The position numbers were made by a program, and so were the translations under genes. A stretch of DNA of 64,000 nucleotides from a virus. The notes beneath the pieces are model-generated. The model was not told the origin of the DNA, ran no database searches, and worked only from the letters and a program-made list of their open reading frames with translations. Where the stretch lies: positions 1 to 64,000 of IMG/VR virus record IMGVR_UViG_3300037583_000003; one strand, given 5' to 3'. This document shows positions 3,307 through 64,000 of this stretch, in pieces. The number at the start of each line of letters is the position of its first letter. Positions within the stretch are counted from its first letter, which is position 1.

Positions 3307-3564
3307 TCAACCTGACCCTAGTAGTTTAGCTACACTTGACACCCTGTTACTAGATACTCCGTCTACTGTGACCTTACATCCTTCAGCTAACTGCTCTACC
3401 ATTAGCGGTTGCCTAATAGCTATGTAAACGCAGTAACCCACTAGCCTCGGACTGCATCCCCATGAGTCAGCTGCTGATTGCTTACTAACTCCCAGCTTAC
3501 ACATATCACCATAAGCATTTACAGCTCTCTGTGAGGTAGTTAGTCCGTCTCTACTGGTTTGCAT
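3307..3564 (-). CDS. HTH-only member of the phage ParB-like family (85 aa)
   Basis: Matches the C-terminal helix-turn-helix half of the ParB-like proteins at 5783-6496 and 9064-9828: LTTSQRAVNAYGDM, GVSKQSAADSWGCSPRLVG, then a hydrophobic stretch and CKVTVDG. The ParB N-terminal nuclease-like domain is absent. The start overlaps the end of the companion gene at 3551-3886 by 14 bases, so the two are probably co-translated. Likely a DNA-binding protein; target and role unknown. Homology to the larger proteins is read by eye from the shared motif order. Confidence 0.6.
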   Translation of the reverse strand: MQTSRDGLTTSQRAVNAYGDMCKLGVSKQSAADSWGCSPRLVGYCVYIAIRQPLMVEQLAEGCKVTVDGVSSNRVSSVAKLLGSG

Positions 3565-3886
3565 TCTTTACAGCCCTAACTACAACTCGTACATCATCCA
3601 TTTCAATAACCTTACTATTAGGATTCATAGCCATTGTAGTTGAACCATTAGCTTGTAACTCTTTAGCAACCACTGGGCTATGCTTCCATAAGTACCTAGC
3701 ATTCCTTAGTAGGTTATAACCTAAGCTAGACACCTCTAACGTCTCCTTATTAGTGAGACCAGCTTCTTTCTGGTACATTATCGCATCTAATGCCATCTGT
3801 GATTCGGTTCTCGGTTGGGAACAGCTACCGTATAAGTTTACGAAGAACTCAACAACTACTTTAAATAATATTTTAAGTTTCAACAT
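3551..3886 (-). CDS. HTH-only member of the phage ParB-like family (111 aa)
   Basis: After a hydrophobic N-terminus (MLKLKILFKVVVEFFVNLYG) the sequence ESQMALDAIMYQKEAGLTNKE...LGYNLLRNARYLWKHSP follows the same helix order as the HTH part of the ParB-like family, but more diverged. The hydrophobic leader could be a membrane or partner-binding helix. A good ribosome binding site (AGGAGATTTAG on the complement) precedes the ATG at 3886. It is divergent from the RusA gene at 3963, with only about 75 bases between them for both promoters. Confidence 0.55.
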   Translation of the reverse strand: MLKLKILFKVVVEFFVNLYGSCSQPRTESQMALDAIMYQKEAGLTNKETLEVSSLGYNLLRNARYLWKHSPVVAKELQANGSTTMAMNPNSKVIEMDDVRVVVRAVKNANQ

Positions 3887-3962
3887 CTAAATCTCCTATT
3901 GTTAATTAGTGGGCATTATTGCATAATACTGACACCTAATCAACTACCAAGGAAACCTTTTT

Positions 3963-4535
3963 ATGGGTTACATAACAGAACACAAACGTTTAGCTAAACC
4001 GAAGAACGCTAACACCTTCTATAGGAAGTTTATATCAGAGGACATACTAGATCTACTAGAGAAGTCCTCATCAGTAGAAGCTGACGATGGGTCATTTACC
4101 TTTAACCTACCTCTTGATATAGTACCAGCTAGCCGTCCAAGACTAGGTAGAGGGATTGCCTATACAGCTGAACCTTACAACAGTTTTAAGAAAGTACTAT
4201 CAGAGTTCTTTGCTTCAACACTAGGTGATTACCTATTAACCTCATTCCATGACGTACCACTTAGGCTGGAGCTAGTAGTTGGATACAAGATACCCAAGTC
4301 CTATAGCAAGAAGAAGAGAGCTGACCTACTAGGACAATACAAGATAACTACACCAGATTGCGATAACGTAGTTAAGTGTGTAGAAGATGCACTAGAGCAA
4401 TCGGGTATAATAGGTAATGACTCAACTATAGCTATAGTCACAGTAACTAAGCTATGGGCTGAGGATTACTCATCTACTATTAAAGTAAACAAACTACAAC
4501 GCTTACCTACCACTGGAGACACTTATGACCATTAA
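3963..4535 (+). CDS. rusA: RusA-like Holliday junction resolvase
   Basis: Structure-specific endonuclease of the RusA family that would cut four-way junctions and branched replication intermediates before packaging. The family pattern is visible: an N-terminal strand (FNLPLDIVPASRPRLGRG), a central lysine-rich region (YKIPKSYSKKKRADLLG), then TPDCDNVVKCVEDAL followed by IIGNDSTIAIV, matching the catalytic D-N-K-D...D arrangement. At 190 residues it is longer than E. coli RusA (about 120) because of an N-terminal extension. It is on the plus strand inside an otherwise minus-strand block and overlaps the next gene by 11 bases. Confidence 0.85.
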   Translation: MGYITEHKRLAKPKNANTFYRKFISEDILDLLEKSSSVEADDGSFTFNLPLDIVPASRPRLGRGIAYTAEPYNSFKKVLSEFFASTLGDYLLTSFHDVPLRLELVVGYKIPKSYSKKKRADLLGQYKITTPDCDNVVKCVEDALEQSGIIGNDSTIAIVTVTKLWAEDYSSTIKVNKLQRLPTTGDTYDH

Positions 4536-5127
4536 CAGGATCAACTACAGGACAGTCACTAAAAAAGATCTACCTTTCAGTTCTATACTCAAGTTTATAA
4601 ACGATAACTATGTGGTAGCTAGATCTGAGTGGCATAGTACCTGTATGCAACTACGTCTAGGCTCTAACGGTGGATTAGAACTCCTATCCGCTTCTGGTCA
4701 CTACTTGAAGAACTACGCCATACCAAGTGCTGATTGTTTAGCTACTGACTGGTTAGTACTATCAGGTGGTCCAAAAAACCCTCCTAGGGTTAGTATAGCA
4801 GTTAGGTCAAACGAATACCTACCACCTAACAAGTATGGAGGTCATCAAGATCAGATGGCTCAGTACCTAGCTATTATCACTAAAGCTAAGTCTAAAGGTA
4901 TAGAACCTCACATACTTGCAAAGAGAGCCGGTCTTAATGTACCTCTTATGAAGAGACTAGTAAAACTAATCGCACAGTGCCCTGAGATCGTTATGTTCCT
5001 TGAACTAGGTCTTAGTGTAACTATAGAGAGAGCATCAGACCTGGTTAGAACTACTACCAGATCTATCCCTCAACTATGTGCTGTAAACGCTAATAACAAC
5101 GCTTACTACAAGGCTGGTAAGGGTTAG
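4525..5127 (+). CDS. Protein with ParB-family-like C-terminal HTH region
   Basis: 200 residues. The N-terminal half (residues 1-105) matches nothing I recognise. The C-terminal half (QDQMAQYLAIITKAKSKGIEPHILAKRAGLNVPLMKRLVKLIAQCPEI) has the same helix spacing as the HTH region of the ParB-like paralogues on the other strand. It overlaps rusA by 11 bases and ends tail-to-tail with the minus-strand ParB-like gene at 5124, overlapping it by 4 bases. Probably DNA-binding; role unknown. Confidence 0.6.
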   Translation: MTINRINYRTVTKKDLPFSSILKFINDNYVVARSEWHSTCMQLRLGSNGGLELLSASGHYLKNYAIPSADCLATDWLVLSGGPKNPPRVSIAVRSNEYLPPNKYGGHQDQMAQYLAIITKAKSKGIEPHILAKRAGLNVPLMKRLVKLIAQCPEIVMFLELGLSVTIERASDLVRTTTRSIPQLCAVNANNNAYYKAGKG

Positions 5128-5690
5128 CTACTCTTCCTATCGCGAGCAGTTACTGAGTTCACGTTGAGTTCATTGTTACTCTTAGCTATACGAAGTAACG
5201 TACCTATCCTATGAGTAGTAACTGTAATACCCTTAGTTACATCTTGGATAGTTACTTCCTTGCCATTGAACAGCATGTCCTCTACCTCTGGTACTATAGC
5301 TAACAACTCCTCTAGTGCTCTTAGGGAGTTTAGCTTAACACCAAACTCTTTACACACGGCTGGTCTGGATAACCTTGAGTTGTTATGCTTAATATACGCC
5401 ATAACTAGTTGTTGCTCTGGTAACACATCCCTTCTTACATTAAGTGCCTCTACAACCATAGCTACATCTTCTAGTGGTGTACTGCTTGGTTGTACCTCTA
5501 TTTTTAACTCTAGACCTAGCTCTATGCAAGCTCTTTGCCTAGCTCGACCATCTACTATCTCACCTCTCCATACCCTAACTGGTAGTTGCTGACCTACTGC
5601 GTCTATACTCCTTACAAGAGCTTCGTATTCTGACGTTGTTAGTTTAGGTTGGTTATTAGCTAACTGGTGTACTTTGTATGTTACTGTCAT
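5124..5690 (-). CDS. ParB-like domain protein, paralogue 1
   Basis: The N-terminal ParB/Srx-like region shows YEALVRSIDAVGQQLPVRVW, GEIVDGRARQRACIELG and ALNVRRDVLPEQQLVMA; the G-x-I-V-D-G-x-x-R motif is the nucleotide-binding core of ParB family N-domains. The C-terminal half is an HTH (SRPAVCKEFGVKLNSLRALEELL). At 188 residues it lacks the dimerisation domain of chromosomal ParB. No ParA ATPase is present in the window, so ordinary plasmid partition is unlikely. One of three full-length paralogues; regulation of transcription or genome-end binding are both possible. Confidence 0.75.
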   Translation of the reverse strand: MTVTYKVHQLANNQPKLTTSEYEALVRSIDAVGQQLPVRVWRGEIVDGRARQRACIELGLELKIEVQPSSTPLEDVAMVVEALNVRRDVLPEQQLVMAYIKHNNSRLSRPAVCKEFGVKLNSLRALEELLAIVPEVEDMLFNGKEVTIQDVTKGITVTTHRIGTLLRIAKSNNELNVNSVTARDRKSS

Positions 5691-5782
5691 TTTGTTGTTC
5701 CTATCTATTGCTGGTTACTGTGGTGTTAGTTTGTAAACAAGCTATGTCATACGTCTACTTGTTTACGATTGGTTGTCATTTA

Positions 5783-6496
5783 CTAGGAGAATATACCTTC
5801 TAGCTCTATACTAGTCCTATAGTTGTACAGTTCTACTAGTTTCACGTACAACTCTGGACTTCCTGTAGAGCCAGCTATGAGCTTAATGAACTCAGCCCTT
5901 AGCGTCACATCATCTATACACTTACTGTAGTCTATCGTGCTTGTGTCCTTCTTTAGCTTCCTGTTACTTACAGCTATCTTCAACAACTTATTTACCATAC
6001 TAGTAGCTACAACAACTCCAGTACGGTAGTCCATTATAGTAGCGTTCTTACCTGCATGAAGTGCTTCAAACATACCAGGCTCTAGTTTCATTAGTGCTTT
6101 GAAGCTAGTTAGTAGTCTAGGAGTACATCCCCAGTCCTTAGCTACAACTGCATTACTATAACCGTGACCTAAACCATGCTTATACGCCACAGCAACCACC
6201 TGAGTAGTCTTAAGGTTACGTCTAGTGTTGTAACTCTTAACTTCAGCTTTAGCCTGTTCTAACGAAAGCTCACTACCATCTGGATTCTTTAGGTTAGTTA
6301 CCTTAAGTTCTCTACCTAGTTCAATACATGACTTCTGTCTACACCTGCCATCTATAATCTCACCTTTCCACAGTAGAGCTGATTGCTTCTGTCCATTCTT
6401 CTCTATGTCCCTAGTCAAGGCTTCTTGCTCTGCTGGTCCAGCTAGAGGTACTAGGTTAGCTAGGTCGTTTATTGCGTATATCTTAGTTTTACTCAT
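5783..6496 (-). CDS. ParB-like domain protein, paralogue 2
   Basis: 237 residues with the ParB motif GEIIDGRCRQKSCIELGREL (about residues 45-65), the NTRRNLKTTQ motif, and an HTH (SNAVVAKDWGCTPRLLTSFKALMKLEP). The C-terminal 60 residues are an extra helical segment not found in paralogue 1. It is the first gene of the minus-strand block reading away from the long non-coding region at 6497-8051, so its promoter and possible autoregulatory site should lie there. The family assignment is firm; the function is not. Confidence 0.78.
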   Translation of the reverse strand: MSKTKIYAINDLANLVPLAGPAEQEALTRDIEKNGQKQSALLWKGEIIDGRCRQKSCIELGRELKVTNLKNPDGSELSLEQAKAEVKSYNTRRNLKTTQVVAVAYKHGLGHGYSNAVVAKDWGCTPRLLTSFKALMKLEPGMFEALHAGKNATIMDYRTGVVVATSMVNKLLKIAVSNRKLKKDTSTIDYSKCIDDVTLRAEFIKLIAGSTGSPELYVKLVELYNYRTSIELEGIFS

Positions 6497-7390
6497 TGTT
6501 CTTCTTCTTGTTGGTTAACTGTTTCGCTTTATTGCTAAACTTGTGACTATCTTACACTAGATTACACTAGAATCAACTACTAATTTCACTTTTATTTGTT
6601 ACATTTTTACCTATACCCTAGCTACTGCCTAGTTTACTAGCATTAAGGTTTTTCACATTACATCGGTGTAAACACTATTCGAGCTAGTCGACTTCCAGTT
6701 CAAATAACCTAAAATCTAGAGTTCAAGAATCAGATTCTACGACTTTACTCTGACATAAACCAAAGCCAAATCTCTATCCAGACCTACAACAAAACCAACC
6801 CCTTCTTTTATCCATATATATACAATGTAAACCACACAATTTACAAGGTTATTATTTTAGCTGCTAGACCTACACCTATAGCTAGTTTGTGTGATCTATT
6901 AAAACCAATATGGGAGACCTCTTCTTTTTTAAAATTCTAGTTTTTTTCCATCGCTTCCACTGGCATCCTGTGGTGTGATGGAGGTTACTTCTTCGTCAGT
7001 CGATGATTGTGTCAGCGAGATTCATTCCGTTCCGCTACGCTACACTCCAATCTCTTACGTGCCAGCAATCTTCTTCCTCCTAGAACCACCTCCAACAAAC
7101 CACAGTCAACCAGCTCGCTAAGTAAAGGGTAGTTGGGGTGATAACTCCACTGCGTTCCGTTATCAATAACCATCCAGCCTTACTAGTCCAACCGTATCAA
7201 CCTGACCAAAGGAAAGTAGATCCTATATCAACAAACGCAAGCAAGGTAACAGAACTTAAGGGTTAGAATTTATTCTACGGATGGGTGGTTGAACAAGGGA
7301 GGTACAAGCGGAGGGGTCTTCCCCGTAGCTTTAACGAACCGCAGTAGACCAGCTAGACGTGTAATAAATTATATAACCGTAGGTCTGTCT

Positions 7391-7415
7391 ATAACTAGAT
7401 TTAAAACCTAGTTAT
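7391..7415. repeat. Inverted repeat ataactag / ctagttat
   Basis: Perfect 8-bp arms separated by a 9-base loop. The right arm runs into tatatatgcgg, and the combination ctagttatatatgcgg recurs with one extra T at 7621-7637. Possibly a regulatory or promoter element of the early region. Confidence 0.45.
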
Positions 7416-7637
7416 ATATGCGGAGTAACTTTAGTTTGTAACTTAGCTATACAACAACTACCCTCTCACTAGCACACCACTAGCCAGTCTAATAACTACT
7501 TAGTCCCTAGTAGTAGACTTAAAGGAGTTAACCCCGTGGTGAGGTTTACAGGAGCTATCGGTCACTACTACTTATGTATATATGTATGACTCTAGTTTGC
7601 AATCTAGCTAGGTTTCGAGTCTAGTTTATATATGCGG
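7408..7637. repeat. Direct repeat pair ctagtt(t)atatatgcgg
   Basis: Copy one is at 7408-7423 and copy two at 7621-7637, about 213 bases apart; they differ by one inserted T. They lie in the gene-free region before the early genes. A shared promoter element is the simplest reading, but no start site can be proven. Confidence 0.45.
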
Positions 7638-8004
7638 TATACAGTGGTACATGAGGTTATACGAGGTTATACGAGATCTAGTGTACATTGTATAGATGAT
7701 TCTACTATAGTGGTCTGTATGGGGGTGTATGGAGTTATTAGGGATATTAGAGTTATTAGTGTTATTGGGGTATAGGGATATAGGGATATAGTGGTAAAAT
7801 TCATGTAGGGAAATTATATAAATTTGTAGCGATGCAATACTACCTTCTGGGACTTACAACCTACAACACACCCCCCCTATCCACTTTATCTAGTCAAGTT
7901 TATCCAGCTACAAAAACCTACCTCGCTAGTTGTATCTCCTACATCCCATCTCTTACTACTGGATCACTTATTGTCCAAACGGTAGGATCAATTAAGATCC
8001 CTAT

Positions 8005-8020
8005 GAACCAACTTTGGTTC
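8005..8020 (+). promoter_or_regulatory. Candidate early hairpin (possible virion RNAP promoter)
   Basis: gaacca-actt-tggttc forms a 6-bp stem with a tight loop about 30 bases before the first early gene. N4 virion RNA polymerase recognises small promoter hairpins of 5-7 bp with 3-base loops upstream of early genes. Stem size and location fit, but the loop is 4 bases and no second copy was found, so this is only a candidate. Confidence 0.3.
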
Positions 8021-8051
8021 GACAACAGTGCATTGCACAAAGGGACATATC

Positions 8052-8426
8052 ATGTCTAAGTTATCTAAGTACGTTAGCGTTACATTCAGAACTCAATCAG
8101 GTACAGGTATTCGTGGTTCAGTATTAAAAGGTTTAGACACTCCGTCTGAACCATTCGTACTATCTTTCAGTGGATTTGGTGAGCCTAACGAGAAAGGATT
8201 CATCTCTGCATTCTTTCGTAGTGACTCTGTACCTGGAGTTATTGTAGCTATGTTGGACACTCACCTTGAGTTACTAATCAAGGAAGGTAACGTAGTCCAG
8301 TTGGGTGATGAGCTACTATTGCAAGTTAACCCACCTAGAGGTTATAGTTTAGAGGAGTTTGACTCTGGTACTAAGCCAACAGTTGAGTTTGTCAAAGAAC
8401 TCAAGTCATCTAAAGGGAGTAAATAG
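8052..8426 (+). CDS. Hypothetical early protein (124 aa)
   Basis: First plus-strand gene after the long non-coding region. I chose the ATG at 8052 (MSKLSKYVSVTFRTQSGTG) because AAAGGGA precedes it at good spacing; an upstream ATG at 8028 lacks a site. The protein is soluble, beta-rich in its first half (TFRTQSGTGIRGSVLKG, FVLSFSGFG) and has a lysine-rich C-terminus. No known family. Position suggests an early host-takeover protein, an inference only. Confidence 0.72.
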   Translation: MSKLSKYVSVTFRTQSGTGIRGSVLKGLDTPSEPFVLSFSGFGEPNEKGFISAFFRSDSVPGVIVAMLDTHLELLIKEGNVVQLGDELLLQVNPPRGYSLEEFDSGTKPTVEFVKELKSSKGSK

Positions 8427-8428
8427 CC

Positions 8429-8809
8429 ATGGCTGTTGTTAAAGAACGTGGTACTTTCGGTAAGGTTTGGGGAGCAATTGGTTCTTCAGCTCAGATCGTT
8501 GAAGCAGTTTCCCAGTCAGCAGTGATGGGAACTATGGGGGTTAGATCTTCAGCTCTAGCGTATGCTGTTAACTCAGCTACCGATACAGCTTCAGAACTTG
8601 GCCTAGTTGGATTAACCACAGAGGAAGCGTTGGCTGTGGTTGAAGTACTAACCATTCAGGTTACCAGTCCGAACAAGCTAAAAAGTGAGGAGTTGTTCAG
8701 TAAAGCAATGGCAAAGCAAGCTGAACTAGCTAAGGTTGAAACCGAGTTAGCTAAAGCTGAATCAGTTAAAGCTAAAGCTGAAGCTGAACTAGCTAAAGGT
8801 GGTGAGTAA
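8429..8809 (+). CDS. Hypothetical early protein with C-terminal charged helix (126 aa)
   Basis: Residues 1-85 are small-residue rich (AQIVEAVSQSAVMGTMGVRSSALAYA...); residues 90-126 are a repetitive charged helix built from AKAE/ELAK units (KAKAEAELAK), likely a coiled coil or extended helix. It follows the preceding gene by two bases, with GGGAG as ribosome binding site. No family recognised. Confidence 0.72.
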   Translation: MAVVKERGTFGKVWGAIGSSAQIVEAVSQSAVMGTMGVRSSALAYAVNSATDTASELGLVGLTTEEALAVVEVLTIQVTSPNKLKSEELFSKAMAKQAELAKVETELAKAESVKAKAEAELAKGGE

Positions 8810-8879
8810 TGAGAACTTACTACTTCATCCGTTACTGTTATGTAACAACCTCAATCAAGCTCAAGTCTTGGTTTAAGTA
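8808..8879 (+). CDS. Possible micro-protein (23 aa)
   Basis: The TAATG overlap at the end of the preceding gene opens a 23-codon frame (MRTYYFIRYCYVTTSIKLKSWFK) that is aromatic and basic and ends just before a terminator. Re-initiation is possible, but such short frames occur by chance. Confidence 0.25.
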
Positions 8880-8892
8880 AACTAATAACTCT

Positions 8893-8920
8893 AGCCCTAG
8901 TGGTTAGGGTTTATTTTTTA
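8893..8920 (+). terminator. Rho-independent terminator
   Basis: Seven-base-pair stem agcccta / tagggtt with loop gtggt (8893-8911), followed by atttttta. It closes the short early operon at 8052-8879 before the convergent minus-strand gene at 9064-9828. Recognition by host RNA polymerase is assumed. Confidence 0.75.
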
Positions 8921-9063
8921 CTCACACTAGGATCTACACTCACACCTACACTCACACTTAAAGACAGTATCTAAGTCTGGCTTCTTCCATCTCCCTCTTC
9001 TCCTTTAATTAGTCTCGCTTTCTCCTAATGGTAGGTTAGGTTAGGTTTACTGAGGGTTACTCC

Positions 9064-9828
9064 TCATCTAGCTTGCTTAATAGCCTTATCCAGTCTAGCT
9101 TTAGTATTACTTAACAGTAGATCTCTAGACTCATCGTTATTTATCTTATCCACTAACAACTCAAAGTAATTAGCTATTGATACTGACTTACCTCTAGTGG
9201 TATCACAGAACAACTCTTCACCTGCTAGGCTACTAAGCTGACCTAGGTAGTCTTTAGCATACACAACTTCAGAAGACTCTTTAGGTACAAACTTAAGGTT
9301 TCTTTCTAGTACTGATAGTATCGTATACACCTTCTTAGACTTAACCATAACTTCTTTCTCCATATCATATACTTCTATAACCTTCTCTTCAAAGAAGTAA
9401 TCTAGGTACTTAGGTTCTAGTTTAACTATCTTATGTAGTCTAGTTAAAGCTCTACCACTGCAACCATAGTCAGCTACCATTGCTGCATTAGACTTACCAC
9501 TAGCTACTTGTTCCTTATAGAAGCTAGCTAATTGAGACTCCACACTTAGATTCCTTCTAGTATTCAGTGCTCTTACCTTATCCTTGACCTCATCTGGAGT
9601 TAGTGACTCAGATAGGTGATCAATACGGTTTTCAGGTATCTCCATATTAAGAGCTACACAAGCCATTTGTCTACATCTGCCATCTACGATCTTACCTTTC
9701 CATAGAACGATAGGTACTTCAAGACCACCTGATCTTTCAATACTTAGCTTTAGTGTTTCTTGTTCTTGTGGAGCTGGCATTCTAACTATGCTTGCAAATG
9801 GATGAATTTCGTATGTTCTGATTGTCAT
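9064..9828 (-). CDS. ParB-like domain protein, paralogue 3
   Basis: 254 residues, the longest of the family. ParB N-domain motifs: EQETLKLSIERSGG, GKIVDGRCRQMACVAL, ALNTRRNLSVESQLASF; HTH: SNAAMVADYGCSGRALTRLHKIVKLEP; then a longer C-terminal helical tail. It is the only minus-strand gene within the early plus-strand block and is flanked by non-coding stretches on both sides, so it is an independent transcription unit. Its separation from the other members across the presumed genome-end region is notable. Likely DNA-binding; exact role unknown. Confidence 0.78.
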   Translation of the reverse strand: MTIRTYEIHPFASIVRMPAPQEQETLKLSIERSGGLEVPIVLWKGKIVDGRCRQMACVALNMEIPENRIDHLSESLTPDEVKDKVRALNTRRNLSVESQLASFYKEQVASGKSNAAMVADYGCSGRALTRLHKIVKLEPKYLDYFFEEKVIEVYDMEKEVMVKSKKVYTILSVLERNLKFVPKESSEVVYAKDYLGQLSSLAGEELFCDTTRGKSVSIANYFELLVDKINNDESRDLLLSNTKARLDKAIKQAR

Positions 9829-9987
9829 TTTGGTGTCCTTAATTAGTTGGGGTTAACATTGCAGCTAATATCAGATAATATTCCTCTATTTAAGCTGTGT
9901 TTAACAGGTGAATATTGTAGCATAATTTTGCCGTATTTTGCCGTAAATTAGAGAATATACCTCACCAGCCCACTTAAATGGTCATTT

Positions 9988-9999
9988 TGCCGCGCGGCA
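9988..9999. promoter_or_regulatory. 12-bp perfect palindrome, possible operator
   Basis: tgccgcgcggca is a perfect two-fold symmetric, GC-rich site in AT-rich surroundings, about 160 bases upstream of the minus-strand ParB-like start. It could be a binding site for that protein or another dimeric regulator. Unproven. Confidence 0.35.
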
Positions 10000-10452
10000 C
10001 AACGAGGTATTTGGAGTGATAAATTTAGACAAAAAAGTACCGAATTTACCACTAAATTTAATCCCCTTAATTAGTTACCTTTATCTTTGGCAAAATTGTG
10101 GAATCATTCTCATTTAGAAAAGGCTATTTGTAACCTTTTTCAAAAAGCTACATGTAACCTTTTTGAGCTACTCTTGGGTACTAATTCAGGATAGGTATAA
10201 AAGTATACATATATAGGTCTCTAAGGAAATAGCCTTTTTGTATTAATACCACAATAAACAGGCAGTTTAAATTCCCAAAATATCCAAAATAAATCGCACT
10301 ATTTTGGTGAATTCATCCAATTTTCCCACTACTAGTAATTTCAACTAGATTCTAACTAGAATCCCATAATTAACCTTTTAACAACTCTATTACTCTAGGA
10401 AAATTAACCTACTCAAAATCCAAACAAAACCTTGACTGCACCAAACAAACAC

Positions 10453-10514
10453 AAAATACCTATAAAATACCTATAAAATACCTATAAAATACCTATAAAA
10501 TACCTATAAATACC
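10453..10514. repeat. Tandem 11-bp repeat aaaatacctat, five perfect copies plus a partial one
   Basis: Five exact units at 10453-10507 followed by a truncated unit, ending about 20 bases before the ATG at 10533. An 11-bp period puts every copy on nearly the same DNA face and creates serial TATAAAAT-like boxes. Likely roles are a multi-copy protein-binding site or promoter array; replication slippage could change copy number. Confidence 0.85.
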
Positions 10515-10532
10515 TTACAAATGGAGTACTAA

Positions 10533-10781
10533 ATGTTACTAATAAAAGCACTTAATCAAATTAAAGACACCTTGAGTGTACTAACAACAGCAATTTGGAT
10601 TGTTCTAGAAGTACTCTTAGTTAAACCCGTAATTAAACCCATAATTAAGTTTCTTATTGAGTTTCTCATGGGTGTTGTAGAAGCTATTAGGGAATATAAA
10701 GGTGAGCTAGTAATACTTTGTGCAATAGCCTTTCTAGTATTCTTAGTTGTGTTTGTATTCTCACTGATACCCTGCTCTTAA
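10533..10781 (+). CDS. Small membrane protein, holin-like candidate (82 aa)
   Basis: Very hydrophobic, with two probable membrane segments: about residues 14-45 (a long amphipathic/hydrophobic run broken by lysine-proline) and 58-79 (ELVILCAIAFLVFLVVFVF). It shares its N-terminal pattern (LNQIKD-L-V...IW..L...VKP) with the next gene, so the two are tandem paralogues. Position just before a SleB-like hydrolase suggests a holin/pinholin role. Its start follows AATGGAGTACTAA. Confidence 0.6.
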   Translation: MLLIKALNQIKDTLSVLTTAIWIVLEVLLVKPVIKPIIKFLIEFLMGVVEAIREYKGELVILCAIAFLVFLVVFVFSLIPCS

Positions 10782-48894: not shown

Positions 48895-49952
48895 ATGAAA
48901 CCTAAATACCTTAACCCTACAACATCAGACCCTCATTCACCTTGGGACTTACTACCTGCTCCTAACCCAAAGGACTCAACCTATCCAGATGACTTCTTCT
49001 ACAAACAAGTAGCTAAGCACCTACTTAAGGACACTGTACGTATGATGGACAATGGTCTACATATAGACATGGACAAGGTTGAGGCACTAGAGGAAACCTT
49101 AATCGAGGTACTAGCTTCAGTATCTACTAGATTAGAAGATAACAAGACCATTCGTAATTTCCTTGTACTTCGTCATGCAGATCTAAAACTAGACTACGTA
49201 GCTGACAGAAAAACTAAACTAAGAGAACCTAGCTACTACACTAAAGAGTTTAAACACAAGGATATGGTACACCGTAGCTACTTTATGAGAGAGTTCCTAT
49301 TAAGAACTAGTATAGACCCTCCAGAAGAACTACTACCTACTGGTATACCTAAGTGGTCAGCTAACGAGGTAAAGAAACTCCAAGGAAAATACCCAATACT
49401 ACAGAAGCTACTACTTGGAACATTACCCCTAACAAACGTTGACGTTATAACAGCTATGTCCAGGTTAGACAAAGATAAGTCTGACATGTACAACGTAAAG
49501 TACCTAGAGCAGATCAAACAGTTACCTGTAGAATTCCCTAAGTTCAATCCAGGTAGCACACTTCAACTACAAAAACTATTTAACTACCTAGGCATTGAGT
49601 CAGAGTCATTCTCCAAGAAGACTGGTTTAGCTAGTTGGGACAGAAAGCAAGTTGAGCGAGTTAACAAACTAACCAACAAACCAGATGTAACTAACTTCAC
49701 TCAAGCCTTCATAGATCACTCATATGCAGCCATAGTTAAGAATAACTTCATAGAGGGATTCTACAACTACAGCATAGACGGTAGATTGTACGGGACTGTA
49801 AAACTCCTAGGAGCTAAGTCAGGTAGACCTACATCAGCTAACCCTAACATGTTGAATTTCCCTTCATCAGGATCTATATTCTCCAAACCTATAAAGGAGT
49901 GTTTCACAGCACCACATGGTTTTGTTATAGGAGCTATAGATTACGCCGCCCT
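48895..49952 (+). CDS. Family-A DNA polymerase, exon 1
   Basis: Polymerase (non-exonuclease) part of an N4 gp39-like replicative polymerase. Residues 1-300 are the thumb and fingers approach; GTVKLLGAKSGRPTSANPNM and GFVIGAIDYAAL form the start of motif A, where intron 1 interrupts a leucine codon. Without splicing, reading continues ten codons further to a stop at 49986. Joined to exon 2 it reads DYAAL-EDRVIANLSGDK, the expected continuation. The full polymerase needs the exonuclease from a separate gene. Confidence 0.82.
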
Positions 49953-50442
49953 TAATATATCGGGGGTCTTACCTAGTAACAGGTGAGTAATAATGGAATT
50001 TAATTGCTGGAACGCTAAGGGGAAACCTAAGCCAATCAGCAGCGAAAGATAGTTAATTTAATAGTCCCGTAATCGTACTTAGACTATACTTTAATCAATA
50101 AAGGAGACTGTATGAAAATGTACAATTACGCTTACATAGAATGTAAGGATTACATGAAAATAGTTATCACAAAGTTAGACGACGACTCTTTCTACAAAGA
50201 GGGTTACTGTGATAACGACGTAAAACCACAAGTAAAAGCTACTGGTGTAAGATACGCAAATACTGGGTACTTATACCTGGCACGAAAAATTAACTGGACG
50301 CGTTCAGAGACTATCTACGCACGTAGAGTAGGCTTCAAGTGAAGTCGAAACAGTTCCTACCCTATCCTACACGGAGGGTAAAGATATAGTCCGATACCAC
50401 AATAAATTGTGGAGTAGTCTAACGAACTACATAACATATAAG
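49953..50442 (+). mobile_element. Group I intron 1 in the DNA polymerase gene
   Basis: Interrupts motif A. Core signatures: aattgctggaac...ggggaaacc, aatcagcagcgaaaga and aaagatatagtccg (S element). The predicted 5' site follows a T of the leucine codon and the 3' site follows a G, restoring CTC and the EDRV reading frame; the exon starts cga pair with the intron guide. It contains a small open frame at 50112-50342. Boundaries are good but not experimentally proven. Confidence 0.8.
50112..50342 (+). CDS. Small open frame inside intron 1 (76 aa)
   Basis: MKMYNYAYIECKDYMKIVITKL... with AAAGGAGACTG upstream, so it looks translated. No homing-endonuclease motif is visible; it may be a remnant or a novel intron-encoded protein. 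Lysine- and tyrosine-rich. Confidence 0.45.
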   Translation: MKMYNYAYIECKDYMKIVITKLDDDSFYKEGYCDNDVKPQVKATGVRYANTGYLYLARKINWTRSETIYARRVGFK

Positions 50443-50699
50443 CGAAGATCGTGTAATAGCTAACCTATCTGGTGACAAAAACAAACTTGGTATATTCACT
50501 CAAGGGCTAGATGGTCATTCACTAGCTGCCTGTTACTATGTACCAGACAGAGTAGCCGTTATTCTAGGTATTACAACCAAAGAACTACTAGATGACATAA
50601 CTAAGGCATCTAGATTACTAAAGAAGCTTGTAGACGACAAAGTACCTGCTGCTGTAAAAATCAGAGGGTTCTTTAAAGCAACAAGCTTCGCATTAGCGT
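50443..50699 (+). CDS. Family-A DNA polymerase, exon 2
   Basis: About 86 codons: EDRVIANLSGDKNKLGIFTQG, LDGHSLAACYYV and IRGFFKATSFALA. The last block is the start of motif B (R-x3-K-x7-YG); intron 2 interrupts it before the expected YG. The exon has no start codon of its own and only makes sense after splicing. Confidence 0.72.
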
Positions 50700-51713
50700 A
50701 GACGTACATGCGCCTTTATGGAGTAATCCATATCGAACAACTATATAAATGCTGGGACTTCCAGTTAAACTAACCTATAACCTATTACAGGCCATGAACA
50801 AGCGGTTAGTTATGGAAAATCAGCAGGTTAAACTTTTATATTTATCTAAGTAAGCAACCTGGTACACTATAACAAACAAAGGAATCTTATATGATAAAGG
50901 TAATAGAAAATTTCCCGAACTACACAATAAGCACAGAGGGTAGTGTAACAATGACAGTATCAAACGTAACTAAGAAGCTCTGGGTTGGTGCTAATGGCTA
51001 CTTGCACGTAGACCTAAGTTCTAATGGTTTTACTAAGAAAGTTTCACTCCATAGACTACTAGCAAAACACTTCTTACCAAATTCTGGTAACAAACGTACT
51101 GTAAACCACATAGATGGTAATAAGTTAAATAACAGCTTGTGTAACTTAGAGTGGTCTACTGACTCAGAAAACCTAAAGCACGCTTACGACACAGGTTTAA
51201 GATCTTGTCAGGCTACTTACACGAATTGCCAACTAGAGGACATACTCACTAACATGTACCTTAAAGGTATAACCTTAGTAGACATTTCTTTCTACGTTGG
51301 TCTAAAGTGTTCAGCACTTAGTGTGTCACTTCGTAAAGCAGCTGCAAGACTTGGTCTAACAGAGGAATACAAAAGTTCCTCTGCCGACAATATAAAGGCT
51401 AGGCATAAACTTGTAGGCGTACTCAACACCAAAACCATCAGGTTACAGATGATAAATGAGCCTACTGGTGACGTGGTAAGAACGTTTAGATCTCTTAAAG
51501 AGGCTAAAGATTTTCTTGGTGTTAGCTCATCAGGTCCTATAAGTAATGTACTTTCAGGTAGGCAGAAAAGAGCTTACAAGTATTTGTGGAAAAAGGTTTA
51601 ACCCCAACGACTATCCCGTAAGGGAGTACACTCAAGTGAGTGGAAACGTATAGTACCCTGAAAAGGGTAATGATATAGTCTACTCTGTTTAGAGATAAGC
51701 AGAAGTTCATAAG
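50700..51713 (+). mobile_element. Group I intron 2 with HNH homing endonuclease
   Basis: Sits in motif B. Core elements match T4 td-like introns: aaatgctgggacttcc, aatcagcaggtt, ccaacgactatccc and aatgatatagtctactct. The 5' boundary is near 50699 (gcgt pairs with gcgc in the guide). The 3' boundary is uncertain within about 30 bases: a G at 51713 keeps the frame but does not restore a clean YG. It encodes an HNH enzyme (50891-51601). Confidence 0.75.
50891..51601 (+). CDS. HNH homing endonuclease (intron-encoded)
   Basis: 236 residues. An N-terminal NUMOD4-like strand (IENFPNYTISTEGSV), HNH core VSLHRLLAKHFLPN ... RTVNHIDGNKLNNSLCNLEWSTDSENLKHA, then a DNA-binding tail (KEAKDFLGVSSSGPISNVLSGRQ, an HTH/NUMOD repeat). 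Such enzymes cut intron-less alleles and promote intron spread. Ribosome binding site AAAGGAATC. Confidence 0.92.
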   Translation: MIKVIENFPNYTISTEGSVTMTVSNVTKKLWVGANGYLHVDLSSNGFTKKVSLHRLLAKHFLPNSGNKRTVNHIDGNKLNNSLCNLEWSTDSENLKHAYDTGLRSCQATYTNCQLEDILTNMYLKGITLVDISFYVGLKCSALSVSLRKAAARLGLTEEYKSSSADNIKARHKLVGVLNTKTIRLQMINEPTGDVVRTFRSLKEAKDFLGVSSSGPISNVLSGRQKRAYKYLWKKV

Positions 51714-52300
51714 CGAACTGGTACTACTTAACGACTAGTATTGAATACAACGATGGCTCATTCCCACCAAACATAGCAGCTACAGCAGGTATACCACTTG
51801 CGGATGCAGAGAGAATTTTCAATGCTTACCACAACGACATGTATCCTGGCATTACTCGCTACAGGGAAGAGTATGTGCTACCAACTGCCATAGAACACGG
51901 CAAACTTCATCTAGCACTAGGATTCTCTATATGGACTGACAACCCCTCTAAAGACATCCGAACACTAGCTAACGCAACCTGTCAGGTATGGTCAATACTT
52001 ACACAGATTGCAATCAACAAAATACACCAACTAATCGACCAAGCTGGTTACCAAGATGACATCAAAGTAACCTCTACCATCTACGACTCTATCTACTTTG
52101 AGATAAGAGATGACCCTAAGATCATACAATGGCTTAACAACCGTATAGTACCAATCTTAGAGAAAGACTTTATGGAAGACCAGGTAGTACCTAACAGTGC
52201 TGACCTAGAGCTAGGTTCTGATTGGGCTACTCTCCACACGTTAACGCACAACGCTAGCATTAGAGAGATTACAGGTGTACTTAATAAACTAGAAAGGTAA
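51714..52300 (+). CDS. Family-A DNA polymerase, exon 3
   Basis: Contains NDGSFPPNIAATAGIPLADAERIFNAYHNDM and the region KVTSTIYDSIYFEIRDD with motif C (YDS replacing HDE), followed by the C-terminus. The 5' limit is approximate because the splice site is not exact. An internal ATG at 51839 could allow translation of only the end, but the catalytic residues would then be incomplete. Confidence 0.75.
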
Positions 52301-57663: not shown

Positions 57664-58785
57664 GTGACAAACACTTACTCAACTTTTAACAGTACTAAGA
57701 ACAACCAACTACTAGAGCCAATGTTCTTTGGTCAGAATGTGAACATAGCTAGGTATGATCAACAAAAGTACCCTGTATTTGAGTCTCTTACTGAGAAACA
57801 ACTATCGTTCTTCTGGAGACCAGAGGAGATTGACCTATCTAATGATAGAGCTGAATTCGCTAACCTACCAGAGAATGAGAAGCATATCTTCCTTAGTAAC
57901 CTTAAGTACCAGATACTACTAGATTCTGTTCAAGGTAGATCACCTAATGTAGCATTCCTACCTATTGTATCTATCCCTGAACTAGAGTCTTGGATCGAAA
58001 CTTGGTCATTCTCTGAGGGTATACACTCTAGATCATACACTCACATCATTCGTAACATCGTAGCTGATCCATCTATCATCTTCGACTCAATACTAGATAA
58101 TGACGAGATCATCAAAAGAGCTGAGAGTGTCACTAAGTACTACGACAAACTCATAGCTCTAACAAACCATATGTATGCTAACCACATAGACATTAGCCTA
58201 GATGCTCCATTCCGTAAGGAGATCAAGACTGCACTATATCTAACAATGGTATCAGTTAATGTACTAGAGGCTATTAGATTCTACGTATCATTCGCTTGTA
58301 GTTTTGCCTTTGCTGAACGAGGTGTTATGGAAGGTAATGCTAAAGTAATCAAGCTTATAGCTAAGGATGAAGCAATCCACCTATCAGGTACTCAGCACAT
58401 ACTCAGCATCATGTCTGAAGGTACTGATGATCCTGAGATGGCTGAGATTGCCTTAGAACAGCGTGAAGCTACTTACTTTATATTTATGGATGCAGCTGTA
58501 CAAGAGAAGCAATGGGCTGACTACCTCTTTAAGGATGGCTCTATGATAGGACTTAACAGTGTCATACTGAAGAACTACATAGAGTACATCACTAACGTCA
58601 GACTGAAGGCACTTAAACTAGACCCAATATTCCCTAAGACAGTTAATCCCTTACCTTGGATGAACCATTGGTTAGTTAGTGACAACGTACAGGTTGCACC
58701 ACAAGAGTCTGAAATCACCTCCTATCTAACTGGTCAAATCGACTCTAGTGTCAACGTTAGTGATTTCAGTGATATGTCTATCTAA
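57664..58785 (+). CDS. nrdB: Ribonucleotide reductase class Ia beta subunit
   Basis: 373 residues, very like E. coli Nrd[54 protein letters not shown] (radical tyrosine in KYQ) and [19 protein letters not shown] (metal ligands). Starts at a GTG with AGGAGTAACAA upstream, 37 bases after nrdA. Its 3' end overlaps the convergent virion polymerase C-terminal gene by eight bases. Confidence 0.95.
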
Positions 58786-61700
58786 TAGGATAAGTTAATG
58801 CCTCCAATCCAGATGGAGTTATAGCCCTAACTAAGGTCTCGAATGGGTTGTACACCATACCTCCTAGGTTCTTAGTTATCATTGACTGGTCTGTTACATC
58901 CTCTACGTCACCTACAATATACTCTTGGCCAAGTATAGCTATCAGTAGTTTAGCTGGATGACCCTTAGCTAGTTCGGCTATAGCTTTCTGTATCCTTGTA
59001 AAGTACTTAGTGAACATAATGAACCCCATCTGGTTAAACCACTCTACCAACCTACTATTAGGCTTGTTATAGTTAATAAATGCATCCCTAACAGTTTTTA
59101 AAGCCTTGTCCTTACTTATACCTTTCCTAAGCATTAAGTGGTACTGGGCATACCTAGCTACAAAATCCGAGTACTGTGTAGCTGTACTCATCATCTTAAA
59201 TACACTCGTCTTCTCATTCAAATACAACAAGTTAACACCATCCCTAACAATAGTAGGTGCTCCTTTCAGCCTATCATCTAAGATGTCTGTAAACATACTA
59301 GAGTTGTCACCTTCCCCAATATCAAGTTCTTCCACTATAGAAGTGTAGAACCCCCCGTCTATCAAATCCTTAACTGGACTACTCTTAATATCCCCTTCTA
59401 ACGCACTCAATCTCCTAATCTCAACACTACTAGCTAACCCAGCTTTTTCCTTTCCCTTTAACCTTATAACTTCTTTCTGGCTACTAATAAAGTCATTCAA
59501 GTCCCTAACCCCTTGCAACTGCAACTTAGCTATCTCTACTGGTGAATGTCCAGTCATTACTGAATACATCAGGTTTGACACTACATTACCTACAAGAACA
59601 GTTGGTGTTCTTAATATCACATCTACCTTAGCTACTTTAACTATCTCTTTCCACACTTTCTCAGCTACTCTTAGACCATAGTTCATACCTTCAGGCAATA
59701 TCTTACCTCCAGGCACATCACTTAATCCTAACTCTCGGTAACCCATAATACTATGTAACATATCTCGTCTCAGTGTGATCCCGTCTTTAAACTCTAACTT
59801 TATCTCAGTAGGTACTAATCCCCACAACTCATTCAACTCTTTATCATTAGATTTACCATCAAGTGTCACATACTCCATAGAGTTAAGTTTACCCATCATG
59901 TGTTTCTTACTCTTATTCTTATCTGCGTCCTCTTTAACATACTTCAGTAACTCTTTATTGAACGTACTAGACTCCATCTTGTCATAGGTACTCGCGTACA
60001 TACTTCCTATAACATTAGACACTCTCCTATCCATCTTCAGTATCTTCACTTTGTTCTTCTTACTCATATTATAACTATACCCAACAATCCTACCACTATT
60101 GTTCAGCTTAGGTGACAGCAGCTTATCATCAGCAGTTGCTACATAAGTACCTGCTTCCATTTCCCTTACAATCTCTTCTGCCCTAACATTTATAGCCCTA
60201 ATCAACTTATCAGCTTTAACTCGTTCCACTACATTGTCACCATCTAGTCCTACCTTACCAGTAACCGATGTACCTCTTGTATTCTTACCAGTAGTTCTCA
60301 GTGCCACCCTATGGAATGTCTGTGTTACCTGTAAACTAGACACATAGTAACCTAGCTCACCTTCTGAGGCATCCAAACTGTATCTAGGTACTTTGTGTGA
60401 CAACTTGTAACCTAGACGCTTCATACGCTTCTCATCAGCTATTGGTGCTGTAGTTCCCTCTATATTCTGATCTAGTACTGGCTTACTGTAACCCTTAATA
60501 ATCCTCCTCTTATCCGCATGTGTAGTGAATAACTCTTTCTCAGACATCTCTTTATGTGCAACTTGATAAGCTACTACCTGTTCTACTCCTGACTTCTCAT
60601 TCTCCATCAAGTCTAGGAATATGTCCTTATCTGTTTTACTACTCACTTGCAACCCTCTTAGAGTAGCTAACGTATCCACTATATCCACTAACTCCTTAGT
60701 ATTATCAGGATACCTAACCCCTTCAACACTTACTCTATCTACTATATTCTTAGCATTGGTCATCTGAACTATTCCACCATCACCATCCACCATGTACCTA
60801 GCTAAACCATCTATTTGTGCTATGTAGTAGTTATACGATCTCTTATCCGTTTCACCCTTAAGCTTATCCTCTAAATTCTTAATCTCTTGCTTCAACCTGT
60901 TAGGATACTTTATTAGATCAACCACATCATAGTCATAGGCTATAGTACCTAGATCAATATCTACAACTATAGACGTTAAACTATTCTCTTCATCTACGTC
61001 TAACTTCCTTGTAAACCCAGACTTTATCATCTGTATCTTATCTAACCTAGTTAGTGCTCTATGCTGATCTATTTGGTTACTGTAGTACCCTAGTTGCTCT
61101 ATCATATCCTGATAGTCGTCACTCTCTGACATATCCCTTATAGTAGACCATAGTGTACCTTCAGGCTTCAATGACTTAACTCCAGTAGTACTAGATAGAA
61201 ACTGTATTGTTCTTTTAGCCTCCTGACTAACTAACGACTTAGCTATGGTTGCCACTATGTGGTAACCTTGTTTCACTACACCACCTCCCACAAGTTTACT
61301 AGTATCTTGTCGCTTACCCGCTTTATCCTTCATCTTATCTATTCTAGTCGCTAGGTTATCTTCAGCTTTATTGAACTGACCTATAAGCTTACCTAGTATA
61401 CCCTCTCTTTTACGTACTACTTGCTTCTTGTTAGTCTCTGCTAACCTAGCTACTAACCACGCCATCTCTTGGTAGTCACTACCAGTAGGTATCTTCCTAT
61501 TCCATACCACTAACCTATCAAACAACTCCCTCACATACCCTATAAGCTTAGTTACCAGATTAGTCTCATCAGTAGTCACCCTATTAGTCCTACGATCAGC
61601 CAAGGCTTTCATAGTAGCTTTATTAGTCCTTGCAAACGCTATGAACTCATGTAGTCCTACAGCAGTATCTGCGAAGTAGTCCAAGTCAGCTTGAGCTTGC

Positions 61701-62686
61701 ACCAAGTCAGGCTTATCCATGTACTTTGATAGCTCCTCTGGTGTCATACTAAGGAAACTATTCTTTATAGCTACTATTCTCCTTCTTACGCTTGCTATGG
61801 CTGGGTCTCTACTGTTAAGTGCATACGCTGTTACTACATGGTACAACTCATGTGTATAAGCTTCTAGTGCTGACCTATTAGTATCTCTCGGTCCTAAACC
61901 AACATACACATCTGCTTTGTTACCGTCAAACTTAACCATACCACCATTCCTGGTTGTCCTACCTAGATGTACAGTTACATCAGGCATTAAGCTAACTAGA
62001 GGTGCTACTATACCTGATAGGTTATCTAGCAGTGTAGCCTTATGCCACTCACCAGTATCTGTTGGATCTAACTTATCTACTTCCTCAGCTAACTCCATGA
62101 TCTTATCAGGGTTACTTATCAAGTCTCTAGCTACTACCTCGTACTCCTCGTAACCCCTATTCAGAAAGTCCTTATCAGACCCTAGGTTATCTAACTCTTC
62201 ACTCGTTACTTGGAAGTCTACACCATCTAGCTGTATAAACGCTTTACCTCTTAACTTTCTAGTGACAGTCCTACCTGTAGTACTACGGGTAAACCTAACA
62301 CTGTAACCATCATCCACTTTAACTATGTCCTCAACTACTACACTAACCCCGTCAACAGTAGGACTATTAGCATTTATCATATCTTTAGTTGCTGCAACTA
62401 CACTCCCTAACTTACTCTCAGGAGACCTACCCTCATCTACACCCCCTTCATCCACTTTAGTTTCTTTAACTTCCTTAGCTTTAACTATGGGTTTAACGTC
62501 TACCATACCTTCTTTAGGTGGTTGCAGTTGTCTTAGATTATATGCAAACTTATCTACGGTATCCTTTACTTCCTTAGTGGTAGTTCCCTTCTTACCCTTA
62601 ACTAACGCACCTAGCTTACCTTTTACAACAGGAGAACTTAAGAACCCCTCCATTTCTTTTTTGAACACATCTACATTACAGCTCAT
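58778..62686 (-). CDS. C-terminal half of a split virion RNA polymerase, with metallopeptidase-like motif
   Basis: 1302 residues directly downstream of, and ATGA-coupled to, the virion RNA polymerase catalytic gene. The length is close to the roughly 1400-residue C-terminal domain of N4 vRNAP (3500 residues), and the end ([20 protein letters not shown]) looks like that domain. Around residue 279 it has [14 protein letters not shown], an HExxH zinc motif, with a later [10 protein letters not shown] (E347) as possible third ligand, suggesting a zincin peptidase. The ATG at 62686 has GGAG seven bases before it; an earlier TTG at 62692 is less likely. It is probably injected with the polymerase. 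Confidence 0.72.
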
Positions 62687-64000
62687 AAACAATCTCCTGC
62701 CTTATCCAATTTCTTTTTCAGTACACTAGAGTCAAATAACTTCCTTATAGCTATACCGTCTTCTTTACTACCAAGCTTAACCAAGCTTTCTACCAGTGCA
62801 TTATACTCTTTCTTTACAGCTTTCCTATTACGATCTCTTATAACGTCAGGAGTAACCTCGTAGGCAGACCCTATCGGACCTACAAACTGACCAGCCCTAG
62901 CGGTAGTACTAAATAGCTCCTTACGTCTTGCTCTAACGTCATCAACAAATACCTCAAGTTTACCTACAGCTTCTTGCAGTTTCTCACTACCACTTAGTTC
63001 ATAAGCTTTCGTTCCCATGTCTAGTAGTGCTTCTGCTGGTGTGTACTGTCTAACATCCTCATACCAATTCTTATTCAGTATGTTTATCTCTCCCATCTGA
63101 CCTATACCTAGTACTGCTGCATCATGTACAGACAGGAATCCCTTATCACTATCCACCAACGACTGTCCCATAGTATTACCGTCACTGGTCTGTACAGGTA
63201 GAACTAACGCAGATGCTCCAGGAGATCTAAACCCTCTAGCTAATAGTGATGTAGTTAGGAACTCTCTATCACCAGTTAGCTCTATCTTAGAGGTTTCTGT
63301 GTGTACATCTTTATCTAACGCTCTCTGGTACAGAAACAGTTTATCCTTAGCTGACGTACTAGATGCTGTATCTATTGCAGGAGCTAACCCACTCTCTATT
63401 AACTTCTTAACTATACCATTCTTATCAGAACTTGTTACTTTCAATCCAATCTTGTCTACCTCCTTATCATACTCCTTCTTGAACACAGCAAATACTTGCT
63501 CTGACAACTCAGACATAGCCTTGTTCATTATCAGGTAGTCTCCAAATACCTCATCAAGTGTCTCTATAAACTCTACCTTATACTTAGCTTCTAGGTAGTT
63601 AGTTAGAACTGCATCAAGCTCACTCAAGCTATCCAAGGACTTCTCAGTTAACTCAGCTCTAGCTTCTACTATCCAGTTAGTGTCCTCCTGCTGTGTGCTA
63701 CCACCACCAGCTACCTCTCTTAGTTGCTTGTCAGTTACAACGTAATTACCATCTCTACCTACTTCAAGCAATCCAGCAACCATAACTTCCTTCTCTCCAG
63801 ATATTACATCATCTACAATCTTGAACAATCCAGCACCATAGTTGAATATCATTACAGGAGTCTTCATTATATTACGTAAACCCTTAGATACTGTGAGATC
63901 CGAGGTTAGTCCTAATCTATCCCAAGCTACATCTATCGGTGACACATCAACCTCTATTGATTTTTCAGGGTCATTAGGATTTACTGTAGACTTCATACCA
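62683..64000 (-). CDS. Virion RNA polymerase, C-terminal part of the catalytic domain (5' end cut by window edge)
   Basis: Over 437 residues from the visible ATG at 63996, but the frame stays open to the edge, so the N-terminal part (including motif A) lies outside. RNIMKTPVMIFNYGAG is a perfect R-x3-K-x7-YG motif B, and GFLSVHDAAVLGIG is motif C (HD) 247 residues after the lysine, close to the N4 spacing (about 281). In N4 the enzyme is injected with the DNA to transcribe early genes. The gene ends just after motif C, where N4 mini-vRNAP would end. Confidence 0.85.
   Translation of the reverse strand, partial: GMKSTVNPNDPEKSIEVDVSPIDVAWDRLGLTSDLTVSKGLRNIMKTPVMIFNYGAGLFKIVDDVISGEKEVMVAGLLEVGRDGNYVVTDKQLREVAGGGSTQQEDTNWIVEARAELTEKSLDSLSELDAVLTNYLEAKYKVEFIETLDEVFGDYLIMNKAMSELSEQVFAVFKKEYDKEVDKIGLKVTSSDKNGIVKKLIESGLAPAIDTASSTSAKDKLFLYQRALDKDVHTETSKIELTGDREFLTTSLLARGFRSPGASALVLPVQTSDGNTMGQSLVDSDKGFLSVHDAAVLGIGQMGEINILNKNWYEDVRQYTPAEALLDMGTKAYELSGSEKLQEAVGKLEVFVDDVRARRKELFSTTARAGQFVGPIGSAYEVTPDVIRDRNRKAVKKEYNALVESLVKLGSKEDGIAIRKLFDSSVLKKKLDKAGDCL

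Follow-up and report, generated by a model that had tools for sequence, protein, structure and literature searches.

Three full-length ParB/KorB-type paralogues, together with two short relatives and one weaker but credible member that carry only the helix-turn-helix (HTH) region of the family, were found within 6.5 kb of an N4-like phage genome. We concluded that these proteins most likely do not form a DNA-partition system but regulate genes, acting at the promoter regions of their own genes. The evidence comprises the relatedness of the six proteins, their predicted fold, their location in related phages, and repeated words in the DNA upstream of the family genes.

The phage genome

The window, a stretch of 64,000 bases, corresponds to bases 1–64000 of a 93,182-bp virus record. 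The record is an N4-like (Schitoviridae) phage of ~93 kb that encodes a virion RNA polymerase (vRNAP; phrog_2206 match, E = 7e-156), RNAP1, RNAP2, and a block of terminase (E = 1e-55) and gp69. We assigned gp69, RNAP1 and RNAP2 by similarity to, and gene order with, Alteromonas phage AD45-P1, in which the early RNA polymerase and replication genes follow the same order. Late genes run leftward from the record end down to ~58.8 kb and then, across the record start, from 6.5 kb to position 1; early genes run rightward from ~10.5 kb. A search of the 93,182-bp record for end repeats found none, and the genome ends therefore stay presumed and unplaced. No DNA similarity to phage records was found.

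Several other features of the genome were recorded. The giant vRNAP is encoded by two minus-strand genes that extend from 58778–64000 of the window on to 70011 of the record. They specify proteins of 2442 aa and of 1304 aa, the latter with the polymerase domain, lie in different frames, and meet in an ATGA overlap with GGAG ahead of the second start; the AD45-P1 vRNAP gene is likewise split (PMC10654107). The DNA polymerase gene (48895–52300, plus strand) is broken by a group I intron (49943–50413, Rfam), and an HNH/NUMOD-like endonuclease gene lies at 50891–51601 within the same gene region. The 11-bp unit AAAATACCTAT is repeated in tandem at 10453–10518, immediately ahead of the earliest rightward gene, at 10533.

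Six related proteins

A preliminary description, made from the sequence alone, had proposed that six ParB/HTH proteins in this region are related. All six ORFs were confirmed. A search of the full 93,182-bp record, with the protein of 5783–6496 as query, returned 9064–9828 (E = 4e-32), 5124–5690 (E = 5e-30) and 3307–3564 (E = 3e-4), with no further matches. We then scored a family profile built from 16 full-length members against the 194 ORFs of the phage and 5,820 shuffled decoys. Exactly the six ORFs ranked on top, all ahead of every decoy (best decoy 8.3 bits), with 4525–5127 as the weakest link.

The three full members are paralogues, with 34–38% identity among them, and all are encoded on the minus strand. 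Of the three, the 237-aa protein of 5783–6496 most closely resembles the gene that most relatives carry as a single copy (~35–43% identity). The 188-aa protein of 5124–5690, encoded 92 bp downstream, has a shorter C-terminus, is 38% identical to it, and matches PHROG ParB-like families. On the early-gene side, the 254-aa protein of 9064–9828 is 34% identical to that of 5783–6496; it gave a tblastn match to AD45-P1 gp028 and is the nearest window member for the contigs L030 and L031. In a tree without AD45 and contig L025 the three paralogues formed one group (support 84/91); when AD45 and L025 were included, this grouping was not recovered as resolved. Branches were long throughout both trees. 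Duplication within this lineage is a possible origin of the three copies.

The short members match profile positions 87–174 only, which cover the HTH and the strand-helix stretch after it; the short proteins begin at the point corresponding to the ParB-N/HTH transition of the full members. Two are encoded on the minus strand: 3307–3564 (85 aa; 39.9 bits, E = 3.5e-12, positions 87–170) and 3551–3886 (111 aa; 18.9 bits, E = 9e-6, positions 91–174). The latter has a hydrophobic N-terminal extension and overlaps the start of the former; both are intact frames in which no nuclease domain was found. A profile of the three full paralogues alone detected 3307–3564 (E = 1e-5), and one extended with relatives detected 3551–3886 (E = 3e-5 before inclusion), where 4525–5127 was marginal.

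The plus-strand ORF 4525–5127 is the least certain of the six. Its protein probably joins a Tad2-like/DUF2829 domain (residues ~18–78) to the family HTH (residues ~108–195; 12.2 bits, E = 1e-3). The match to PF11195 scored 15.9 bits, short of the curated cut-off of 25, with E = 0.0018, and was the only one in the genome. The Tad2-like part ends in LATDW, and the Tad2-like protein of AD45-P1 has LAEDW at that place. In a structure model the C-terminal half was well predicted (pLDDT 87–95) and the N-terminal half poorly, for which reason a fold search gave nothing; no tblastn match and no PDB sequence match was found. The combination of a Tad2-like domain with a ParB-family HTH may possibly link to counter-defence or signal sensing.

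Fold and active-site residues

The AlphaFold2 model of 5783–6496 (pLDDT 82) gave 16 Foldseek matches in the PDB at E ≤ 1e-3, and all were ParB, Noc or KorB proteins (Spo0J included). TM-scores of these matches were low (~0.3), which we attribute to a different domain arrangement, so the fold call rests on the Foldseek E-values and probabilities. The family profile was collinear with Spo0J through ParB-N and HTH, at a level not significant by sequence (E = 0.12). The model thus predicts a ParB-N fold followed by a ParB-type HTH, placing the family in the ParB/KorB superfamily. Pfam ParB_N (PF02195) did not match the record, and NCBIfam TIGR00180 reached one member at E = 0.015, below its curated cut-off, which is a matter of library sensitivity and not a structural feature.

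Six residues were invariant in ten members: G50, R51, R53, N90, R92 and R93, comprising a GRxR stretch and the N of NxRR. Among these, G50 and R53 form the GxxR phosphate motif and N90 is the box III asparagine, while arginine replaces the glutamate of GERR. By our own placement in the alignment, R53 and N90 would correspond to KorB R117 and N146, both of which are required for CTP hydrolysis (PMC11790492); KorB hydrolyses CTP despite having GARR in place of GERR (PMC11790492). According to a survey, phage proteins of the ParB fold are capable of binding CTP or ATP, the choice of nucleotide is not reliably predictable from sequence, and an R-to-A change in GxxR serves as a binding-dead control (PMC12704722).

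The claim that a ParA ATPase is missing was borne out: Pfam AAA_31 and CbiA had no match in the 93,182-bp record, which is possibly incomplete, and both matched in 14/14 control genomes.

Relatives and gene location

The family is encoded by 14 uncultured viral contigs (given L-numbers here) and by AD45-P1, and we compared these carriers. In AD45-P1, L010–L013, L016, L026–L028, L030 and L031, the family gene lies on the same strand as, and ahead of, GIY-YIG, gp69 and terminase. It also precedes gp69 and terminase in L029, at a larger distance; in L015 a terminase-like gene is on the opposite strand, and the GIY-YIG/gp69/terminase order was not seen in the DNA examined of L014 and L032. Among seven records searched whole, several of which are fragments, 6/7 held one match and the L014 phage three, made up of a pair of full members and one GIY-YIG–HTH fusion. 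The last of these (L014, 10741–11529), with the GIY-YIG domain first and the ParB-family HTH after it, lies directly downstream of a full family gene. One copy per phage is the usual state; two phages combine multiple members with a fused HTH. Searches of viral_contigs with single window proteins found no close relatives, and tblastn against isolates returned AD45 phages and weak ParB matches only. We checked for HTH-only proteins unrelated to the ParB-like ones and for a set scattered among relatives, and found neither.

Upstream DNA and candidate operators

The genes had been described as lying on either side of a long non-coding region. They do flank it, but two plus-strand ORFs (8028–8426 and 8429–8809) also lie between the gene groups, so that what separates the groups is two genes as well as 1.5 kb of non-coding DNA. 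The non-coding stretch, upstream of 5783–6496 (6497–8027), had no Rfam match, and its sole ORF of at least 60 aa is a 75-aa ORF at the right edge.

A candidate operator lies upstream of 9064–9828. A half-site cluster of ATTTTGCC/TTTTGCCG (at 9925, 9935 and 9984), together with the palindrome TGCCGCGCGGCA at 9988, occupies 9925–10005; the palindrome is part of the TTTTGCC half-site cluster and contains one ATTTTGCC. Four copies of ATTTTGCC occur in the 300 bp upstream of the gene, the fourth inverted at 10089 (shuffle p = 0.002), and the 3 copies of TTTTGCCG in 93 kb are all at 9925–10005. A second candidate site at 10113–10164 (repeat pair D8) consists of two inverted-repeat-like copies (AAAAAGGTTAC...AGC/GCCTTTT); these hold both of the 2 copies of AAAAAGGTTAC in 93 kb. 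Upstream of the other two full members the repeated-word test was not significant, and the candidates there are suggestive. In the promoter region of 5783–6496, TCTAGTGTAA occurs twice in tandem on the minus strand (6552–6571), its just two, adjacent copies in 93 kb, a repeat count that is not significant alone. Upstream of 5124–5690, the inverted repeat GTAAACAAG-N16-CTTGTTTAC (5733–5766) accounts for two of the three copies present across 93 kb; the 9-mer gave p = 0.023, and words of 6–8 were not significant.

Relatives showed repeated words of their own upstream of the family gene (L013, L015, L016, L027, AD45-P1 and L031), several beside a sigma70-like promoter. In L013, TTGCGCAATAAGTGCGCAA stands immediately before TATAAT, and a similar element is present in L010 and L012, the best-scoring word of L010 differing from this TTGCGCA element. 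The smallest p over word lengths 6–8 was ≤ 0.025 in 7/14 upstream regions versus 2/28 intergenic controls (Fisher p = 0.003); L031 is a near copy of L030, and the pair was counted once by L030, whose own region does not pass the threshold. Of 180 tiled windows, 6 reached p ≤ 0.017, two of them family-gene upstream regions. These statistics are support and not proof, because regions and word lengths were picked after looking. It could be another factor that recognises the repeated words; two intergenic controls show such words too. In AD45-P1 another small gene leads the operon, so the repeats may serve that protein. Candidate words differed between paralogues and between phages.

L010, L013 and AD45-P1 (L007) have in common an element GGAGTAATGCC...TTACAAAATTTTAAAA that precedes the family gene at the late/early boundary; it was not found at the corresponding place in the window. 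Most of the repeats that recurred across the full region were explained as chance pairs or as coding sequence of paralogues.

Proposed mechanism and alternatives

We consider it probable that the full members act at the late/early boundary as autoregulated transcription regulators of the KorB kind, possibly gated by NTP and with private operators, and that they have been multiplied in this phage. The basis is the paralogy, the fold, the GxxR and N residues, the failure to find ParA, the conserved location and the upstream repeated words. An orphan ParB/KorB-type regulator would have been kept near the boundary between leftward late genes (gp69, terminase) and rightward early genes. As in plasmid KorB, a dimer may load at short operator repeats of its own promoter, where the N-terminal nucleotide-binding domain would gate closure of a clamp, and the regulator would keep its own operon, and perhaps early promoters close by, repressed. 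Here, three full copies would act with diverged operators. Without forming a clamp, the two HTH-only copies and the Tad2-like-HTH protein would attach to related sites or to the full proteins; the short members probably compete, and they may thereby tune or relieve repression. The regulatory set that the preliminary description had suggested for an expanded family with shortened members is supported by the paralogy, the ParB/KorB fold, the lack of ParA, and the operator-like repeats upstream of 9064–9828 and of several relatives' gene. A more elaborate scheme struck us as quite unlikely: a network derived from one duplicated ParB/KorB-type gene, in which three NTP-gated clamps have private operators, the HTH-only proteins are antirepressors, and the Tad2-like-HTH protein makes phage transcription respond to a nucleotide immune signal.

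Other explanations were weighed against the regulator model. The HTH may be a modular part swapped between phage proteins, the short members being targeting domains or decaying remnants with no regulatory role. The family HTH indeed occurs behind GIY-YIG in L014 and behind the Tad2-like domain of 4525–5127, and the genome elsewhere carries a group I intron and an HNH gene; however, 3307–3564 and 3551–3886 are intact and nuclease-free, and full members are fixed at one position across relatives, making this account unlikely, if the least so of the alternatives. We found it slightly harder to credit that the proteins bind near the physical genome ends and aid terminase, circularisation or the start of replication. 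The family gene adjoins gp69 and terminase in most relatives, and N4-like genomes carry terminal repeats on the terminase side (PMC4837373); in phiAxp-3, whose ends are mapped, the repeat lies beyond five plus-strand genes past that side (PMC4837373). Yet our record has no end repeats by which to place the ends, the candidate sites vary between phages and sit at promoters, and the boundary element of L010, L013 and AD45 was not found in this phage.

That the proteins work with a ParA of the host to maintain the genome in a partition-like way during pseudolysogeny appeared improbable. It would fit the ParB fold and the pseudolysogenic state mentioned for N4-like viruses (PMC10654107), but no ParA was found in the record, site words differ between paralogues, and the gene set is that of a lytic phage. 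That the proteins inhibit the ParB of the host, or other nucleoid proteins of it, seemed the most improbable of all, since the shared fold is the only point in its favor and identity to any bacterial ParB is low.

Comparison with known systems

Phages commonly encode ParB-fold proteins but no ParA, in most cases with no assigned function. The orphan phage ParB-CTPase-fold proteins surveyed in PMC12704722 likewise lack ParA and have the GxxR motif; in the passages of that survey consulted we found no mention of several paralogues and HTH-only members at one locus. AD45-P1 M610_gp028 (NC_021532), annotated as 'ParB N-terminal domain-containing protein', is a recognisable relative (~25% identical) at the same place before GIY-YIG/gp69/terminase. 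It is a single copy, and no HTH-only members were found in AD45-P1, whose Tad2-like protein is a single-domain protein of 90 aa, whereas 4525–5127 joins such a part to a ParB-family HTH. The preliminary description knew of no phage system of this composition. For the full members this did not stand, given the single, mostly syntenic gene in relatives and the AD45-P1 annotation; the set of three full and three partial members was not found described.

The ParB-N and HTH fold is also common to the phage family and KorB of plasmid RK2 (PMC11790492; PDB 8QA8, 8QA9), a transcription regulator whose phosphate motif, as in the phage family, lacks the usual glutamate, with conserved R and N. RK2 KorB acts with KorA and many 16-bp OB sites (PMC11790492), whereas in the phage no KorA was identified, the operators are candidates only, and truncated paralogues are present. 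A lytic N4-like lineage with the family gene beside the terminase block and phage-specific candidate operators provides a testable candidate for a KorB-like switch, and the expansion with HTH-only and Tad2-HTH members illustrates a way in which a regulator of this kind may be divided and put to new use. Because the family gene is single and mostly syntenic in relatives, the full members form one branch of the orphan ParB proteins, which are a known kind; what is new and unusual is their expansion, with truncated members, into a mixed set in one phage.
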